Shown here: positions 8,198-53,279 of the stretch, in pieces | Layout of the letters: each line of letters begins with the position of its first letter | Position numbering within the stretch: the first letter of the stretch is position 1 | Assembly: GCF_000725805.1 (NCBI RefSeq) | Contig: NZ_KL647134.1 | Span: 124,001 to 188,000, forward strand | Length of the DNA: 64,000 bases | Origin: Streptomyces xanthophaeus | Lineage (GTDB): Bacteria; Actinomycetota; Actinomycetes; Streptomycetales; Streptomycetaceae | Reading direction: 5' to 3' | Notes under the pieces: model-generated | Told to the model about the DNA's origin: nothing | The model's database searches: none | Seen by the model: only the letters and a program-made list of their open reading frames with translations | Made by a program: the position numbers and the translations under genes

Positions 8198-9211
8198 ATG
8201 ACCAGCACGCTCGGTATCGCCGTCGTCGGCACCGGGAGGATGGGCGCCGACCACGTCCGGCGGATCGGCCGGACGGTGGGCGGGGCCCGGGTGGTGGCCG
8301 TGGCCGACCCGGACGGGGACCGGGTCAAGGCGGTCGCGGACGCCCTGGACGGGGCGAGCGCGCACACCGACCCGGCGGCGGCGATAGCCGCACCCGGGGT
8401 CCAGGCCGTGCTGATCGCCTCCCCCGGGCCGGCCCACGAGGAGGCCATCGCGCACGCCCTGGCACGGCAGTTGCCGGTGCTCTGCGAGAAGCCGCTGACC
8501 CCGGACCCGGAGGGTGCGCTGCGCGTGATGGAGGCGGAGCGGCGGCTGGGGAAGCGCCTGGTGCAGGTGGGGTTCATGCGGCGGTTCGATGCCGAGTACG
8601 TGCGGCTCAAGGAACTGCTGGACGCGGGCGGCATCGGGCGGCCCCTCTTCCTGCACTGCCGCCACCGCAACGCCTCCTCGCCGTCCTTCTTCACGAGCGA
8701 CATGCTGATCACCGATTCCGTGGTGCACGAGGTGGACGCGGCCCGCTGGCTGCTGGGGCAGGAGGTCACGGCCGTGTCGGTGCTCTCGCCGCGACCTACC
8801 TCGGCAGCTCCGGAGGGGCTGCGCGATCCCCGCCTGGTGCTGCTGGAGACCTCCGGCGGAGCCGTGGTCGACGTGGAGATCTTCGTCAACTGCGGCTTCG
8901 GCTACCAGGTCCGGTGCGAGGCGGTCGGCGAGTCCGGCAGCGCACAGATCGGCGACGGGCACGCGATGGTCGTGCAGTCGGGAGGCCGGTGGGGCGGGGA
9001 GATCGACCAGGACTTCACGGTGCGCTTCGCCGATGCCTACGACCGCCAGCTGCGGAGCTGGGTCGCCGGGGCCGCGCGGGGCAGGGTGGCGGGGCCGGAC
9101 GCCTGGGACGGTTACGCGGCGGCGGCCGTCTCGGAGGCGGGCCTGACGGCGGCGCGCAGCGGCGTACGGACCGTGGTGGAGATGGCGGAGCGGCCGGCCC
9201 TGTACCGCTGA
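8198..9211 (+). CDS. iolG: Gfo/Idh/MocA oxidoreductase, probable myo-inositol 2-dehydrogenase
   Basis: This 337-residue protein has the Rossmann motif VVGTGRMG at 9-16, the EKP signature at 97-99 (CEKPL) and the D-x3-H active-site motif in [15 protein letters not shown]. IolG oxidises myo-inositol to 2-keto-myo-inositol with NAD. A perfect AAGGAGG site lies 8 bases before the ATG. It is cotranscribed with the TIM-barrel gene upstream and ends in a terminator at 9307. The family is broad, so scyllo-inositol dehydrogenase cannot be ruled out. Confidence 0.85.
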
Positions 9212-9306
9212 GCCCGGCCTGCGGCTGCCCCTGCCTGCGGCTTCCCTGCCTGCCGCGGCCCCTGCGGGCCTCTCCGGCTGCCTCCCGTGGCACATCGGCA
9301 GCCGGG

Positions 9307-9336
9307 GACCCCTGTGGCACTTCCGTCACAGGGGTC
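9307..9336 (+). terminator. Terminator after iolG, within the 9212-9519 gap
   Basis: A perfect 10-bp stem (GACCCCTGTG / CACAGGGGTC) with a 10-base loop is followed by TCCTTTGTG. The rest of the 308-base gap is C-rich degenerate sequence (repeats of CCTGC) and, from about 9400, the presumed promoter of the HTH gene. I see no other gene in it. Confidence 0.65.
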
Positions 9337-9519
9337 TCCTTTGTGTCACGCATATCCGCATTACGCGGGTTTTCCGTCACAGGCGGTCGACAGCCCCTCC
9401 CCTGCTCTCACCCCGCGTCGTTCCTTGGGCACAACCCGAGTGATCGTCACTGTCCACGCGCCGGCTCCCCCGACGGCCTCCCGGCCGGCCCCGCGGCGTG
9501 GACAAGGAGGTGTCGTGGC

Positions 9520-9720
9520 ATGAGCGACCGACAGCTGTGGTCCTACAAGGAGATCGCTGCCCACATCCGCGTCCAGCCGGACACCGTGCGCTCCTATCGC
9601 AAGCACGGTCTCCTCCCCCCTCCCGACCACGTGGAGGGCGGCAAGCCCTACTGGTACGCCGACACCGTCCGCGCGTGGGTGGCCCGCAGGCCCGGCAACC
9701 GGGGCCGCCGCGAGGACTGA
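9520..9720 (+). CDS. Small helix-turn-helix DNA-binding protein (66 aa)
   Basis: The 66-residue protein is almost entirely one DNA-binding domain: YKEIAAHIRVQPDTVRSYRKHG is a helix-turn-helix, followed by a wing-like stretch with KPYWYADTVRAWVARRPG and a basic tail. It resembles the MerR/AlpA/BldC-like winged-helix group but has no effector domain. The ATG has an ideal AAGGAGG site 8 bases upstream, which supports it being real despite its size. Its target is unknown. It could bind the adjacent iol region or act elsewhere; excisionase-like activity is possible, but there is no phage or integrase context. Confidence 0.75.
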   Translation: MSDRQLWSYKEIAAHIRVQPDTVRSYRKHGLLPPPDHVEGGKPYWYADTVRAWVARRPGNRGRRED

Positions 9721-47337: not shown

Positions 47338-48498
47338 ATGTCCCTCGACCACCGGCTCACCCCCGAGCACGAGGAACTCCGCCGTACCGTCGAGGCGTTC
47401 GCGCACGACGTGATCGCGCCGAAGATCGGCGACCTGTACGAGCGTCACGAGTTCCCGTACGAGATCGTCGCCGAGATGGGCCGCATGGGCCTGTTCGGCC
47501 TGCCCTTCCCCGAGGAGTACGGCGGCATGGGCGGCGACTACCTCGCCCTCGGCATCGCCCTGGAGGAGCTGGCCCGCGTCGACTCCTCGGTCGCCATCAC
47601 CCTGGAGGCCGGGGTCTCCCTCGGCGCCATGCCGATCTACCTCTTCGGCTCCGAGGAGCAGAAGCGGCAGTGGCTGCCCAAGATGTGTTCCGGTGAGGTC
47701 CTGGGCGCCTTCGGCCTGACCGAGCCGGGCGCCGGCTCGGACGCGGGCGGCACCCGCACCACGGCCGTCCGCGAGGGCGACGAGTGGGTGATCAACGGTT
47801 CGAAGTGCTTCATCACCAACTCGGGCACGGACATCACGGGCCTGGTCACCGTCACCGCCGTGACCGGCCGCAAGGCCGACGGCCGCCCGGAGATCTCCTC
47901 GATCATCGTCCCGTCCGGCACCCCGGGCTTCACGGTGGCCGCGCCCTACTCCAAGGTCGGCTGGAACGCCTCGGACACCCGCGAGCTGTCCTTCGACGGG
48001 GTGCGGGTCCCGCTGGCCAACCTGGTCGGCGCGGAGGGCCGCGGGTACGCGCAGTTCCTGCGCATCCTGGACGAGGGCCGGATCGCGATCTCCGCTCTGG
48101 CCACCGGTCTGGCGCAGGGCTGCGTGGACGAGTCGGTGAAGTACGCCAGGGAGCGGCACGCCTTCGGCAAGGCGATCGGCGACAACCAGGCCATCCAGTT
48201 CAAGCTGGCGGACATGGAGATGCGCGCCCACATGGCCCGTATCGGCTGGCGTGACGCGGCCTCGCGGCTGGTGGCCGGCGAGCCCTTCAAGAAGGAGGCG
48301 GCGATCGCCAAGCTGTACTCCTCCACCGTGGCCGTGGACAACGCCCGTGAGGCCACGCAGATCCACGGCGGCTACGGCTTCATGAACGAGTACCCGGTCG
48401 CCCGCATGTGGCGGGACTCCAAGATCCTGGAGATCGGCGAGGGGACGAGCGAGGTCCAGCGCATGCTGATCGCCCGCGAGCTGGGCTTCACCGCCTAG
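47338..48498 (+). CDS. acdH: Acyl-CoA dehydrogenase, probable isovaleryl-CoA dehydrogenase
   Basis: This 386-residue FAD enzyme has GAFGLTEPGAGSDAGGTRTTA, FITNSGTD, NASDTRELSFDGVRVP and the C-terminal QIHGGYGFMNEYPVARMWRD. As the last gene of the methylcrotonyl-CoA operon it most likely oxidises isovaleryl-CoA to 3-methylcrotonyl-CoA, completing the leucine branch. AcdH of streptomycetes can also use isobutyryl-CoA and 2-methylbutyryl-CoA. Its AAGGAG site overlaps the lyase stop region, so it is part of the operon. Regulation is by the upstream AccR-type sites. Confidence 0.92.
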   Translation: MSLDHRLTPEHEELRRTVEAFAHDVIAPKIGDLYERHEFPYEIVAEMGRMGLFGLPFPEEYGGMGGDYLALGIALEELARVDSSVAITLEAGVSLGAMPIYLFGSEEQKRQWLPKMCSGEVLGAFGLTEPGAGSDAGGTRTTAVREGDEWVINGSKCFITNSGTDITGLVTVTAVTGRKADGRPEISSIIVPSGTPGFTVAAPYSKVGWNASDTRELSFDGVRVPLANLVGAEGRGYAQFLRILDEGRIAISALATGLAQGCVDESVKYARERHAFGKAIGDNQAIQFKLADMEMRAHMARIGWRDAASRLVAGEPFKKEAAIAKLYSSTVAVDNAREATQIHGGYGFMNEYPVARMWRDSKILEIGEGTSEVQRMLIARELGFTA

Positions 48499-48571: not shown

Positions 48572-48594
48572 AGGAAGGTTAGGCTAACCTTCCT
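48572..48594. promoter_or_regulatory. Iron box (DmdR1/IdeR operator) upstream of desE
   Basis: AGGAAGGTTAG-G-CTAACCTTCCT, read as two arms around a single G, is a perfect 11-1-11 dyad containing TTAGGCTAACC. It matches the iron-box consensus of DtxR-type repressors. It ends 47 bases before the desE ATG, so desE and desF should be repressed by iron. Confidence 0.92.
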
Positions 48595-48641
48595 GCCAAA
48601 TGGCTCCCCGGCCGCCGGAACGTACGAATACGGACACCCTC

Positions 48642-49682
48642 ATGCGCAAGTCCCGCACCTCCCCCCTCTCCCGTCGCGGTCTCATAGCGGCCGGCGGCGC
48701 CCTCGGCCTCGTCGCCGCGCTCAGCGCCTGTGGCACGACCCAGGCGAAGGGGGAAGGCGGCAAGGACACCGGCGCGGCCGCGTCGGAGGGCTGGTCCTTC
48801 AAGGACGACCTCGGCACGGACATCAACCTCAAGGCCAAGCCGAAGAACGTCGTCGCCTACACCGGCACGGCCGCCGCGCTCCACGACTACGGGGTCCAGG
48901 TCAAGGGCGTGTTCGGCCCCACCAAGACCGCCGACGGCAAGCCCGACCCGAACGCCGGCTCGATGGACATCTCCAAGGTCGAGATCCTGGGCAACGTCTA
49001 CGACGAGTTCAACGTCGAGAAGTACGCCGCCCTCCAGCCCGACCTGCTGGTCACCAACACCTGGGACGGAAGCCTCTGGTACGTCCCGACCGCCTCCAAG
49101 GACAAGATCGCGAAGCTGGCCCCGGCCGCCGCGATCGGCGTGGGCAAGGGCGTCTCCCTCGACCGGGCCCTGGAGCGCACGGCCGACCTCGCCAAGGCCC
49201 TGGGCGCCGACCTGAACACCCAGAAGACGGCCGACGCCAAGGCCCGCTTCGAGACCGGCGCCGCCAAGGTCCGCGAGGCCACCAAGGCCAACCCGGGCAT
49301 CAAGGTGCTCGTCGGCTCCGGCTCCGACGCCCTCTTCTACGTGTCCACCCCGAAGACCTCGGCCGACCTCAAGTACTTCGAGACCCTGGGCGTCGAGTTC
49401 GTCACCCCCGAGGACGGCGCGCTGGACGCGGGCGGCTTCTACGAGAGCCTCAGCTGGGAGAACGCGGGCAAGTACCCGGCCGACCTGGTCCTGCTCGACA
49501 ACCGCACCGGCACCCTCCAGCAGGAGGAGCTGAAGGCCAGGCCCACCTGGACCGAGCTCCCCGCGGTCAAGGCCGGCCAGGTCGCCCCGCGCGTGACCGA
49601 GCCGATCTACTCGTACGACAAGTGCGCCCAGATCCTCGAAGACCTCGCGAAGGCAATCCAGAACGCCAAGAAGGTCAGCTGA
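48642..49682 (+). CDS. desE: Siderophore-binding lipoprotein, DesE-like (ferrioxamine uptake)
   Basis: This 346-residue protein has a twin-arginine/lipoprotein signal: RR at 11-12 and lipobox LSAC with Cys30. The mature part is a class III periplasmic-binding fold with NVVAYTGTAAALHDYGV, YDEFNVEKYAALQPDLLVTNTW and GVEFVTPEDGALDAGGFYESLSWE. It should bind hydroxamate siderophores, chiefly ferrioxamines, at the outer face of the membrane. The start at 48642 is preferred to an in-frame ATG at 48600, which lies next to the iron box and adds a polar leader. The partner permease and ATPase are not in this window. Confidence 0.9.
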   Translation: MRKSRTSPLSRRGLIAAGGALGLVAALSACGTTQAKGEGGKDTGAAASEGWSFKDDLGTDINLKAKPKNVVAYTGTAAALHDYGVQVKGVFGPTKTADGKPDPNAGSMDISKVEILGNVYDEFNVEKYAALQPDLLVTNTWDGSLWYVPTASKDKIAKLAPAAAIGVGKGVSLDRALERTADLAKALGADLNTQKTADAKARFETGAAKVREATKANPGIKVLVGSGSDALFYVSTPKTSADLKYFETLGVEFVTPEDGALDAGGFYESLSWENAGKYPADLVLLDNRTGTLQQEELKARPTWTELPAVKAGQVAPRVTEPIYSYDKCAQILEDLAKAIQNAKKVS

Positions 49683-49752
49683 CCCCCGCCGCCCCACCGC
49701 ACCGGACCGCACCGCACCGGACCGACCGGCCTTCCCAGGGGGGACCCACCGC

Positions 49753-50697
49753 ATGACGGCAACAGCATCCGGATCCGCAGCCGCAGCCGCAGCCGCGTCC
49801 GACGTCCCGGCCGAGCAGCACTTCCGCTTCTTCGCCCTCGACGTGCTCCGCACCCGCCGCCTCGGGCGCTCGTTCCTGCGGGTCACCTTCGGCGGGGAGT
49901 CGCTCGCGGACTTCCGCTCGGGCGGCTTCGACCAGAGCCTCTCGCTCTTCCTGCCGCCCCCGCACCGGGAGCACACCGTGCTCCCCTCCACCGACGCGGA
50001 CACCTGGTTCGCGGCCTGGCGCGCGATGCCCGACGAGGAGCGTCCGGCGATGCGCTCCTACACCGTGCGCGAGCAGCGCCGGACACCCGAAGGGGTGGAC
50101 GAGGTCGACGTGGACTTCGTCCTGCACGGTGACCACGGCCCCGCCTCCCACTGGGCCGGGCGGGCGGTCACCGGCCGCCGGATCATGGCGATCGGACCGG
50201 CCGTCGCGCAGAACAGGTCCGTGCGCTTCCAGCCCCCGGCCGACTGCACCGAGGTCTGGATGTACGCGGACGAGACCGCGCTGCCCGCCGCCGCGGCGAT
50301 CCTCGAACGGCTCGGCGCCGGGGTCCGGGTCCGGGCCTGGTTCGAGGTGCCGCACGCGGACGACCGGCTCGCACCGGCCGCCCCCGCGGACACCGTCCTC
50401 ACCTGGATCGTGCGCGAGGGCACGGGCCCCGACCGGACCGGGCGGGTCCTGGACGCGCTGCGCGCCGCGGAGCCCGGTGACGCCGCCGGGCCCGCCCGCG
50501 GAGCCCCGTACGTCTGGCTCGCGGGCGAGGCCGGCACCGTCCGGGCCGTACGCCGCCACCTGGTGCAGGAACGCGGCGTCGACCGCAGGGCCGTGCGCTT
50601 CACCGGCTACTGGCGGCTCGGCTCCAGCGAGGAGCAGCTCCTCGCCGAGGCCTACGCGGGCCGGGCCCCCGGCGAGGAGCCGGACTCCGCCCTGTGA
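49753..50697 (+). CDS. desF: Siderophore-interacting flavoprotein (ferric reductase-type), DesF-like
   Basis: This 314-residue protein has the SIP FAD-binding barrel: MRSYTVREQRRTPE, VDVDFVLHGDHGPASHWAGRA and GRRIMAIGPA. A C-terminal NAD(P)H-binding SIP domain follows, with VWLAGEAGTVRAVRRHLVQERGVDRRAVRFTGYWRLG. Such proteins reduce Fe(III)-siderophore to release iron in the cytoplasm. It starts 70 bases after desE, with tandem GCACCGGACC-type repeats between them, and shares its iron control. The N-terminus is Ala/Ser-rich. Normally desABCD follow; here a GH20 gene begins 7 bases after the stop. Confidence 0.9.
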   Translation: MTATASGSAAAAAAASDVPAEQHFRFFALDVLRTRRLGRSFLRVTFGGESLADFRSGGFDQSLSLFLPPPHREHTVLPSTDADTWFAAWRAMPDEERPAMRSYTVREQRRTPEGVDEVDVDFVLHGDHGPASHWAGRAVTGRRIMAIGPAVAQNRSVRFQPPADCTEVWMYADETALPAAAAILERLGAGVRVRAWFEVPHADDRLAPAAPADTVLTWIVREGTGPDRTGRVLDALRAAEPGDAAGPARGAPYVWLAGEAGTVRAVRRHLVQERGVDRRAVRFTGYWRLGSSEEQLLAEAYAGRAPGEEPDSAL

Positions 50698-50704
50698 AGG
50701 GACG

Positions 50705-52315
50705 CTAGGACCACGGCACGTCCGGGGCCCGGTAGTAGCTGACGTCCTGGGCGTCCAGGCGCGGGCCCTGGGCCGCGAGCCGTTCGCGGTAGGAGGCCCA
50801 GTCCCGCGGGCCGTGGCTCCAGCCCAGTTCGGCCAGGCTCAGGACCCTCGGGAAGGCCATCAGCTCCAGGTCCCCGCGGGTCGCGACGGTCTCCGTCCAC
50901 AGCGGCGCCTCGACGCCCAGGACCGCGGACTCGGGAACTCCGGCCAGATAGGAGCCCGGGTCCCAGGAGTAGGACCGCTCCACGGGGACGTAACCGGCCC
51001 AGGCCAGGCCCGGCTTGGTCTGCGCGTCGTACTTCATGTCCAGGTAGAGCCGGTCCGCGGGCGACAGGATCACCGGATGGCCGGCCTTCGCCGCCGCCGC
51101 GACGGCCGCCTTCTCCGCCGCCGGGGTCTTGTCGTGGCCCCAGTACTGGAGCACCGCGTCCTCGGCCGGGCGGGCCGCGGCCAGCTGGTGCCAGGCCATC
51201 ACCTTCTTGCCGTGGCGCCCCACCACCGCCTGCGCCCGGTCCATGAAGGCCGCGTAGTCCGCCGCCGGGGTCGAGTGGGCCTCGTCGCCGCCGATGTGGA
51301 GGTAGCGGCCCGGCGTGAGCTCCGCGAGTTCACCGAGCACCTCGTCGATGAACTCGTACGTCCGCTCCTTGCCGACGCACAGCGAGCTGAAGCCCACCTT
51401 GGTCCCGGTGTACCGCTCGGGGGCCTTCCCGTCGCAGTTCAGCTCGGCGTAGGAGGCGAGTGCGGCGTTCACGTGGCCCGGCATGTCGATCTCGGGGACC
51501 ACGTCCACGTACCGCTGGCCCGCGTACGCGACCAGCTCGCGGTAGTCGGCCTTGCTCCAGTACCCGCCGGGGCCGCCGCCGACCTCGCTGCCGCCGCCGT
51601 GCTCCGCCAGCCGCGGCCAGGAGTCGACCGCCAGGCGCCAGCCCTGGTCGTCCGTCAGGTGCACGTGCAGGGTGTTGACCTTGTACTGGGCCAGCTGGTC
51701 GATGTACCTCTTCACCTGCTCGACCGTGAAGAAGTGCCGTGCGACGTCGATCATCGCGCCCCGGTACGCGAACCGCGGCCGGTCGGTGACCGTGCCGCCG
51801 GGGACCGTCCCGGGCCCCGCCACCGGCACCAGCTGGCGCAGGGTCTGCCCCGCGCGGAAGAGCCCCGCCGGGGTGCGCGCGGTGAGGGTGACCCCGCCCG
51901 GGCGGGACTCCAGCCGGTACCCCTCGTCCCCCACCCCCTCGGCGTCCTCGTCCAGCCGGAGCCGGATGCCGTCCCCCTCGGCCCCGTCGACCACCGGCAG
52001 CGGCAGCCCGCTCGGGCCGCGCAGCTGCTCGGCGAGGAGCTCGCCGACCTGGCGGACCTCCTCCCCCGACCCGTGGCCCGTACGGATGACCGTGCCGGCG
52101 CCGAAGGCGTACCCGGGGCCCTGCGCCTGCGCGGACAGGGGCGCGGGCAGGAGCCGTTCGTAGGGGGCGAGGACGGCTGCGGGCCGCCGGTCGCCGGGTC
52201 TGGCGTCGTCTCCGTGGGCGGCGGTGCAGGCGGTGGCCAGCAGCGGGGCCACGCCGAGGAGGAGGGGGCCGAGGGGCCCGAGGAGGGTGCCGAGCGTGCG
52301 TCGCAGGACTCTCAT
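50705..52315 (-). CDS. Exported GH20 beta-N-acetylhexosaminidase
   Basis: This 536-residue protein has a signal peptide ending LLATAC (Cys30), possibly a lipoprotein site, though position -3 is Ala. The GH20b domain leads into the TIM barrel, with the catalytic Asp-Glu pair in HIGGDEAH and NTLHVHLTDDQGWRL and DMPGHVNAAL around it. It removes terminal GlcNAc/GalNAc from chitin oligomers or glycans outside the cell. In S. coelicolor the neighbour of the des cluster is also a hexosaminidase. It shares a 52-base divergent promoter with the DUF4429 gene, which holds a DasR-like inverted repeat. Confidence 0.92.
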   Translation of the reverse strand: MRVLRRTLGTLLGPLGPLLLGVAPLLATACTAAHGDDARPGDRRPAAVLAPYERLLPAPLSAQAQGPGYAFGAGTVIRTGHGSGEEVRQVGELLAEQLRGPSGLPLPVVDGAEGDGIRLRLDEDAEGVGDEGYRLESRPGGVTLTARTPAGLFRAGQTLRQLVPVAGPGTVPGGTVTDRPRFAYRGAMIDVARHFFTVEQVKRYIDQLAQYKVNTLHVHLTDDQGWRLAVDSWPRLAEHGGGSEVGGGPGGYWSKADYRELVAYAGQRYVDVVPEIDMPGHVNAALASYAELNCDGKAPERYTGTKVGFSSLCVGKERTYEFIDEVLGELAELTPGRYLHIGGDEAHSTPAADYAAFMDRAQAVVGRHGKKVMAWHQLAAARPAEDAVLQYWGHDKTPAAEKAAVAAAAKAGHPVILSPADRLYLDMKYDAQTKPGLAWAGYVPVERSYSWDPGSYLAGVPESAVLGVEAPLWTETVATRGDLELMAFPRVLSLAELGWSHGPRDWASYRERLAAQGPRLDAQDVSYYRAPDVPWS

Positions 52316-52316
52316 G

Positions 52317-52341
52317 GCCCCAGGTATAGGCCACCTGGGGC
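52317..52341. promoter_or_regulatory. DasR-like (dre) inverted repeat upstream of hexosaminidase
   Basis: GCCCCAGGT and ACCTGGGGC enclose ATAGGCC, a perfect 9-7-9 dyad starting 2 bases before the GH20 gene. Its core AGGTATAGGCCA matches TGGTCTAGACCA, the DasR element core, at 9 of 12 positions. DasR controls chitin and GlcNAc genes in streptomycetes. Confidence 0.55.
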
Positions 52342-52367
52342 GTTCAGGCCGGTGCGAGAATCGTCGG

Positions 52368-53279
52368 ATGGCGGAAATCATCCAGAAGGACGGCACGTGG
52401 ACCTTCGACGGGGACACGGTGCGCATCGTGCCGGGCCGCGACAAGGGGGTGGGCCTGCTGCGCCAGACCCTCGGTGAAGTGGCGGTCCCGCTGCGCGCGG
52501 TGGCGGGCATCAGCTACGAACCGGGCCGCAAGTCGGGCCGGTTGCGGCTGCGGCTGCGCGACGGCGCCGACCCGCTGCTCCAGGTGACGGGCGGGCGGCT
52601 GGCGGAGGCCTCCGACCCGTACCGGCTCAGCGTGGAGAGCGACCGCAGCGGGGTGGCCGAGTACTTCGTGGACGAGGTGCGCAACGCGCTGCTGCTGGAG
52701 CAGGTGGAGAGCGGGCCGACGGTCGCCTACCTGCTGCCCGGCCCCCCGGTGCCGGTCACGGTGAGCGCGGGCGACGGGACGGTCGCCTTCGACGGGGACC
52801 GGGTGGTGCTGGAGTGGAACTGGAAGACGGAGGACGCCAAGAGCTCCGGCGGAGCGCGCTCGTTCCGGGCCGCGGACGTGAAGGCGGTGGAGTGGACCCC
52901 GGCGGTGGGACTGGAGAACGGCTGGCTCCGCTTCACCCTGGCCGGCGCCACGGCCTCGGCGCCCGCACCCAAGTACGACCCCCACGCGGTGGAGCTGTTC
53001 GGCTTCAAGAAGGACCCGCTGATGGCCTTGGTCGCGGCGGCGGTGGCGGTACGGCTGCCCCACCCGGCGGCGGCAGCGGCCGAGGAGGCCCCCGCGGCCC
53101 TCGCCGCGGCGGGCGGCTCCCTGGGGCTGCCGGGCGGGGCGTCGGGGGCCGCGGAGGAGCCCGTCGACCACGACGCCCTGCTGCGGCGGCTGCGCGAGCT
53201 CGGCGAACTGCACCAGTCGGGCATCCTCACGGCCGATGAGTTCACGGCGGCCAAGCAGGCCGTTTTGCGGCGTTTCTGA
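52368..53279 (+). CDS. DUF4429 protein with C-terminal SHOCT helix
   Basis: The 303-residue protein holds two DUF4429 beta-rich domains, each a PH-like repeat: residues ~1-115 (WTFDGDTVRIVPGRDKG) and ~125-235 (VAFDGDRVVLEWNWK). An Ala/Gly linker leads to a C-terminal SHOCT motif (HDALLRRLRELGELHQSGILTADEFTAAKQAVL). SHOCT helices often mediate oligomerisation or membrane contact. The role is unknown. It is read divergently from the GH20 gene. A GATC-rich hairpin and a DasR-type site follow its stop. Confidence 0.85.
   Translation: MAEIIQKDGTWTFDGDTVRIVPGRDKGVGLLRQTLGEVAVPLRAVAGISYEPGRKSGRLRLRLRDGADPLLQVTGGRLAEASDPYRLSVESDRSGVAEYFVDEVRNALLLEQVESGPTVAYLLPGPPVPVTVSAGDGTVAFDGDRVVLEWNWKTEDAKSSGGARSFRAADVKAVEWTPAVGLENGWLRFTLAGATASAPAPKYDPHAVELFGFKKDPLMALVAAAVAVRLPHPAAAAAEEAPAALAAAGGSLGLPGGASGAAEEPVDHDALLRRLRELGELHQSGILTADEFTAAKQAVLRRF

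Follow-up and report, generated by a model that had tools for sequence, protein, structure and literature searches.

Desferrioxamine is often regarded as a near-universal siderophore of Streptomyces. The des locus of S. coelicolor comprises desE, which encodes a ferrioxamine-binding lipoprotein of solved structure (2x4l, 6enk), desF, and the biosynthetic genes desABCD, and an unlinked locus, desJGH, makes capped ferrioxamines (PMC12161575). Receptor-bearing non-producers ("cheaters" or xenosiderophore users) have been described in Vibrionaceae (PMC5812596) and in Pseudomonas (PMC5583256). Among Streptomyces, growth of strain A is stimulated by the ferrioxamine of a neighbour, a case of piracy (PMC13061897), as is that of S. 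tanashiensis by S. griseus ferrioxamine (Yamanaka 2005, cited in PMC9113425), and a 2026 survey of Streptomyces and other Gram-positives reported the desferrioxamine cluster in 987 of 5,940 genomes and desE in 771 of those 987 (PMC13293324). Here we describe a 64,000-nucleotide stretch of a Streptomyces xanthophaeus contig (the window; assembly of 8.62 Mb in 162 contigs) in which desE and desF are kept and desABCD have been deleted, and we infer with good confidence from its genes that the strain uses ferrioxamine but has lost the ability to make it.

The window shares with the S. coelicolor locus the desE-desF order, the flanks, the iron box, and the DesE sequence, whereas desABCD and the unlinked desJGH are both absent from its genome. 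It resembles the Vibrionaceae and Pseudomonas cheaters in that a receptor is kept and biosynthesis is absent (PMC5812596, PMC5583256); unlike those cases, it has a Gram-positive lipoprotein receptor in situ beside the deletion, has lost an unlinked accessory locus, and is known from its genes alone. Strain A also differs from the window strain in that desABCD are present and transcribed there (PMC13061897). This kind of evolution is already known; what sets the present case apart is the repeated, two-locus pattern across the genus. The open literature, with most subscription papers lying outside the search, yielded no account of Streptomyces losing desABCD repeatedly while retaining desE.

A des locus lacking desABCD

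The window carries, in order, an acyl-CoA dehydrogenase gene (ACAD), an iron box, desE, desF, 7 bp, and a convergent GH20 gene (Table 1). A sequence-only reading of the window had proposed the iron box, a DesE-like receptor, a DesF-like SIP protein, and only 7 bases to the stop of the GH20 gene; domains, motif, and structure match confirmed all of these. DesE is identified on two counts, namely a match to the S. coelicolor DesE structures 2x4l/6enk over residues 48-359 (E 3e-104) and the position of its gene, preceded by an iron box, in the canonical interval from ACAD to GH20. The ATG at 48642, which is in frame, accords better with the starts in relatives and is likely the start of desE. FAD-binding and SIP domains are both present in the desF product, and the gene holds the position behind desE that DesF has in relatives. 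Iron boxes of this type are bound by DmdR1 (PMC12161575), and binding is predicted for the window box; shuffled sequence (100 shuffles) gave no match at ≤2 mismatches. An NCBIfam scan returned no name for desE, desF, or the GH20 gene of the window, and a plasmid search with DesF returned distant relatives only. The first ~60 codons of the GH20 open reading frame may lie outside the gene.

The gap behind desF is a deletion of desABCD, because 28 of 34 relatives with the same synteny have these genes immediately after desF. A DesE search of named species genomes had given 47 loci, from which the 34 with an ACAD flank were counted and the 13 without one were excluded; one excluded locus, L051 of Micromonospora, has desEF together with desABCD. 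The six counted loci that lack desABCD behind desF are L026, L030, L032, L036, L037, and L040. Within the stretch examined, the GH20 gene was also visible downstream in 22 of the 28 loci, which bears out the expected order desE-desF-desABCD-hexosaminidase and, by synteny, the claimed loss of four biosynthetic genes with both flanks intact; the notion that relatives never had desABCD beside desEF fails for this clade. The distance from desF to the GH20 gene is 5392 bp in L024, 7108 bp in L044, and 7 bp in the window, and a replacement siderophore cluster at the locus is ruled out by so short a remainder. The clade, which by its loci resembles S. lavendulae, S. katrae, and S. goshikiensis, shows 93-98% identity in the left-flank ACAD, and the closest tree rows to the window (L039, L031, L044, L050, L027, and L028) all keep desABCD. 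A DesE match was found in 39 of 40 desD+ loci (those with true DesD), which we picked from the top-scoring part of the genus list with a resulting bias to high DesD similarity.

True DesA, DesB, and DesD were absent from the whole 8.62-Mb genome; DesC had no genome-wide search of its own. The L024 DesD query gave matches of 100%, 89%, and 71% in the desD+ genomes G007, G008, and G009, as opposed to a best of 34-36% in the window genome (35%) and six desABCD-less relatives, and the weak DesD-like relative of the window genome was also found in G007 and G008. The best DesB and DesA matches in the window genome were 40% each, versus 94-100% and 90-100%, respectively, in G008 and G007. The set desA, desB, and desD that would mark a ferrioxamine producer is thus lacking. 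Relatives at 35-40%, which occur in desD+ genomes too, were all that these searches gave, and a moved desABCD is thereby ruled out. The sequence-only reading had left two options, and the same evidence upholds one (that the strain no longer makes ferrioxamine) and removes the other (that the genes moved). Relocation of des genes does occur in other genomes: in S. olivoreticuli (L047), DesE and DesF stand together without adjoining desABCD, and a 71% DesD match lies distant on the same chromosome.

The unlinked desJGH locus is also missing. In G007, this locus consists of a penicillin-amidase gene, an adjoining SIP gene, and a PF13523 acyltransferase gene near gatB, and was named from those domains and PMC12161575. 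The window genome gave no desJ, desG, or desH match from gatB to an MMPL gene, so it lacks the desGH genes expected for capped ferrioxamines. Among 80 genomes, DesG was matched in 22 of 30 with desD; 48 of the 50 without desD gave no match and two (G022, G093) gave fragments, both holding broken desJGH pieces with a nearly full-length desH in G093. Eight desD+ genomes had no DesG, as expected of makers of uncapped forms, and the link between desD and DesG is therefore one-sided. Over the 59 tree rows for which both traits are scored, 19/24 desD+ rows had DesG versus 0/35 desD- rows, and the two traits changed together in 5.6 of 7 independent pairs and oppositely in none (median p 0.03). The co-loss lends evolutionary support to the claim that desGH serves the same pathway (PMC12161575). 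In G001 and G004 (L182, L183), desJ, the SIP gene, persists without desG and desH, and an iron-release gene has thus outlasted biosynthesis genes here as well.

Table 1. Features of the window and two siderophore-type loci elsewhere in its genome (G000)
Feature	Position	Strand	Basis or remark
ACAD (acyl-CoA dehydrogenase), left flank marker	47338..48498	+	PF00441, PF02770, PF02771
Iron box, DmdR1-type palindrome core, 5' of desE	48576..48590	+	exact motif match; core letters AGGTTAGGCTAACCT
desE, predicted ferrioxamine-binding lipoprotein	48600..49682	+	PF01497, match to 2x4l/6enk
desF, predicted SIP-family flavin-dependent ferric-siderophore reductase	49753..50697	+	PF08021 + PF04954; TGA ends at 50697
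Deletion junction, 7 bp AGGGACG	50698..50704		relatives have ~5 kb with desA-desB-desC-desD there
GH20 beta-N-acetylhexosaminidase, right flank marker	50705..52510	-	PF00728 + PF02838; gene ends at 50705
Decarboxylase-like (2,4-diaminobutyrate, DABA, type) + N-monooxygenase-like pair	L061:12906-15697 (contig C1)		
Unlinked NIS (nonribosomal peptide synthetase-independent siderophore) synthetase gene pair + acyltransferase-like gene	L012:2600-6900 (contig C13)		

Repeated loss of desABCD in Streptomyces

The window case is not unique, and the desD-less state is common in the genus. In an evenly drawn sample of 295 Streptomyces genomes, true DesD (E ≤1e-130) was present in 236 and missing from 59, the window genome counted. 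A DesE match (E ≤1e-40) was found in 47 of these 59, and in 32 (31 of the other 46 loci plus the window) it lay at the canonical place with ACAD in the same locus; desE retention is given here as plain counts and not as a rate. Of the 32 canonical genes, 31 had no frame break. desABCD had gone entirely from 27 of the 32 loci, with traces or part of the operon in L072, L076, L088, L091, and L092. The gene desF was missing from 19 of the 32, and it was present in 56/59 desD+ versus 15/35 desD- tree rows. desD-less loci with desE and no desF numbered 19, versus 3 with desF and no desE (p 0.0009 assuming independent rows, although the rows are related).

Fragments of desB, desC, and desD lie behind an intact desE in L072 (G242; 8281-9585, desE orientation), an operon in decay. 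In three desD-less loci, desC comes directly after an open desA frame, and both desB and desD are absent (L092:9004-10981, L088:9041-11081, and L156:8776-10861); this mini-operon may have multiple origins because its DesA rows do not form one group. A 346-residue minus-strand gene occupies the former desABCD site between desF and GH20 in L064 (9151-10191, desE orientation) and in L032 (12105-13145).

The tree and the differing junctions show that the receptor-only outcome evolved repeatedly in Streptomyces. A quick tree built from the DNA of three flank genes has 94 rows (59 desD+ and 35 desD-) and weak support at 24 of its 91 inner branches; the desD trait changes on it at least 14 times, a count that alone cannot separate gain from loss. 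Well-supported contrasts are seen, for instance, in the 12-row group of the window and in L026/L035, L036/L038, and L030/L029, as well as in L069/L070 versus L137, L099 versus L144, and L092 versus L129/L133. A single group for all ten losses in the clade of the window was rejected on the quick tree (p-AU, approximately unbiased test, 2e-51). The gaps at loss loci measure 7, 178, 28, 48, 18, 313, 64, 1104, 1105, and 5498 bp. In L026, desF is followed by an intact desA iron box and then directly by a hairpin with the loop found behind desD in L024, L044, L039, and L035; in L036, half of that box survives together with the same desD-type terminator hairpin; the window has neither this box nor the hairpin left. 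A single old loss common to the clade is ruled out by the tree, the one-clade test, and the differing junctions, and the window's loss of desABCD is a separate event.

Retention of desE after the loss

We propose a ferrioxamine-making ancestor with the usual ACAD-desE-desF-desABCD-GH20 locus. In the window lineage, desABCD were deleted and the unlinked desJGH was lost as well, no desA, desB, or desD copy stands elsewhere in the assembly, and desF, desE, and the iron box of desE stayed intact. DesE probably binds ferrioxamines secreted by neighbouring actinomycetes, a permease would import them, and DesF would reduce the iron and so release it, the strain being spared the cost of synthesis. The window genome indeed combines an intact receptor with genome-wide loss of biosynthesis, the search covering DesA, DesB, and DesD and not DesC singly. 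An iron box with ≤2 of 15 mismatches stands 5' of desE in each of the 32 canonical desD-less loci; among desD+ loci of other clades that carry desE, 38 of 39 have one too. The ratio of nonsynonymous to synonymous substitution rates (dN/dS) of DesE is below 1 in all but one value, and that exception, L030, rests on a dS of 0.025. A clade of 13 rows that consists of losses throughout (L071-L075, L077, L079-L081, L084-L086, and L108) has an unbroken desE in 12. These data suggest that desE in desD-less loci is mostly under purifying selection, slightly less constrained than before. The suggestion of the sequence-only reading that the strain is a siderophore user gains from the kept iron box, from this constraint on an intact desE, and from the repeated retention of desE; uptake itself is a prediction.

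Several findings weigh against our interpretation. Of the 59 desD-less genomes, 12 gave no DesE match and a further 15 carry DesE elsewhere (in one of the latter, G024, it lies 9 kb from ACAD); at 6 of the 11 ACAD loci found among these genomes, GH20-gene sequence lies near ACAD and desE is absent, and an ACAD search of G208 gave no match. One canonical desE, in L108 (G181), is frame-broken. The median DesE dN/dS was 0.288 for 12 loss pairs versus 0.216 for 15 desD+ pairs, which were chosen by us and partly share rows; for the window it was 0.605 against L039 and about 0.60 against L044, versus 0.404 between L039 and L044. The loss branch was the faster in 11 of 17 DesE triples (three of which include the window) and in 8 of 11 DesF triples. 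Because dN/dS is raised and the loss branches are faster, part of desE retention may reflect gradual decay or an altered specificity. Two further NIS loci, on C13 and C8, are present in the window genome, as is the decarboxylase/N-monooxygenase pair on C1, and dependence on foreign siderophores is therefore not necessary.

These remaining loci suggest that the window strain may make another siderophore. The C1 pair and the C13 NIS pair look like one hydroxamate pathway divided between two places in the genome. The nine clade genomes searched, desD+ and desD- alike, all contain relatives of the C1 pair. On C8, two divergent IucA/IucC-type synthetase genes (L013:8707-11960) were observed, one of which is closest to AcsD among solved structures. 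The siderophore-type genes score below the curated NCBIfam cut-offs, and no iron box was found in the examined stretches of the C13, C8, and C1 loci (forward strand, near-palindromic motif).

An own pathway of this sort (NIS or other hydroxamate), or a foreign siderophore other than ferrioxamine, could be what DesE now serves. The faster evolution of DesE in loss lineages and the C13, C8, and C1 genes speak for such a change of ligand, but G007 and G008, both desD+, have the C1 pair and the DesD-like NIS relative as well, so that neither arose as a replacement, and the three loci show no iron box. Moreover, of 89 columns invariant among 60 desD+ DesE proteins, the window DesE departs in only 1 (loss mean 1.26, n = 34; desD+ mean 0.18, n = 60), and we regard this alternative as rather unlikely. 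We consider it a little less probable still that desE and desF are remnants decaying slowly under relaxed selection, on the way to eventual loss. The raised DesE and DesF dN/dS on loss branches, the frequent absence of desF, the broken frame of L108, and the operon fragments of L072 would fit such decay; it accords poorly with dN/dS below 1 outside L030, with the 12 unbroken genes of the 13-row loss clade, and with an iron box kept in every canonical locus. An assembly or binning artefact, with desABCD present but unassembled or collapsed, might be suspected of a draft in 162 contigs, but it is hardly credible: the window contains zero N, the junction is internal to contig C3, completeness is listed as 100%, desA, desB, and desD are missing together with desJGH at its unlinked site, and genomes assembled into a single contig, G022 and G075 among them, show the same state.

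The window locus is probably better explained by selection for the receptor alone than by a chance stage of decay, because the same outcome evolved repeatedly in Streptomyces. The broader proposal is that makers became receptor-only users many times in the genus by an ordered erosion, in which desABCD and desGH would go first and often desF next, desE being held by selection; we see the chances of this as evenly balanced.

Implications for iron exchange in Streptomyces

If ferrioxamine has been lost in about 20% of species, many of which keep the receptor, iron exchange among soil Streptomyces would be asymmetric, and producer counts of the antiSMASH type would understate users. Sister-species pairs with and without desABCD would then suit direct tests of when the production of a public good ends. 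Should ordered erosion prove true, the genus would represent a natural replicated experiment on public-good cheating.

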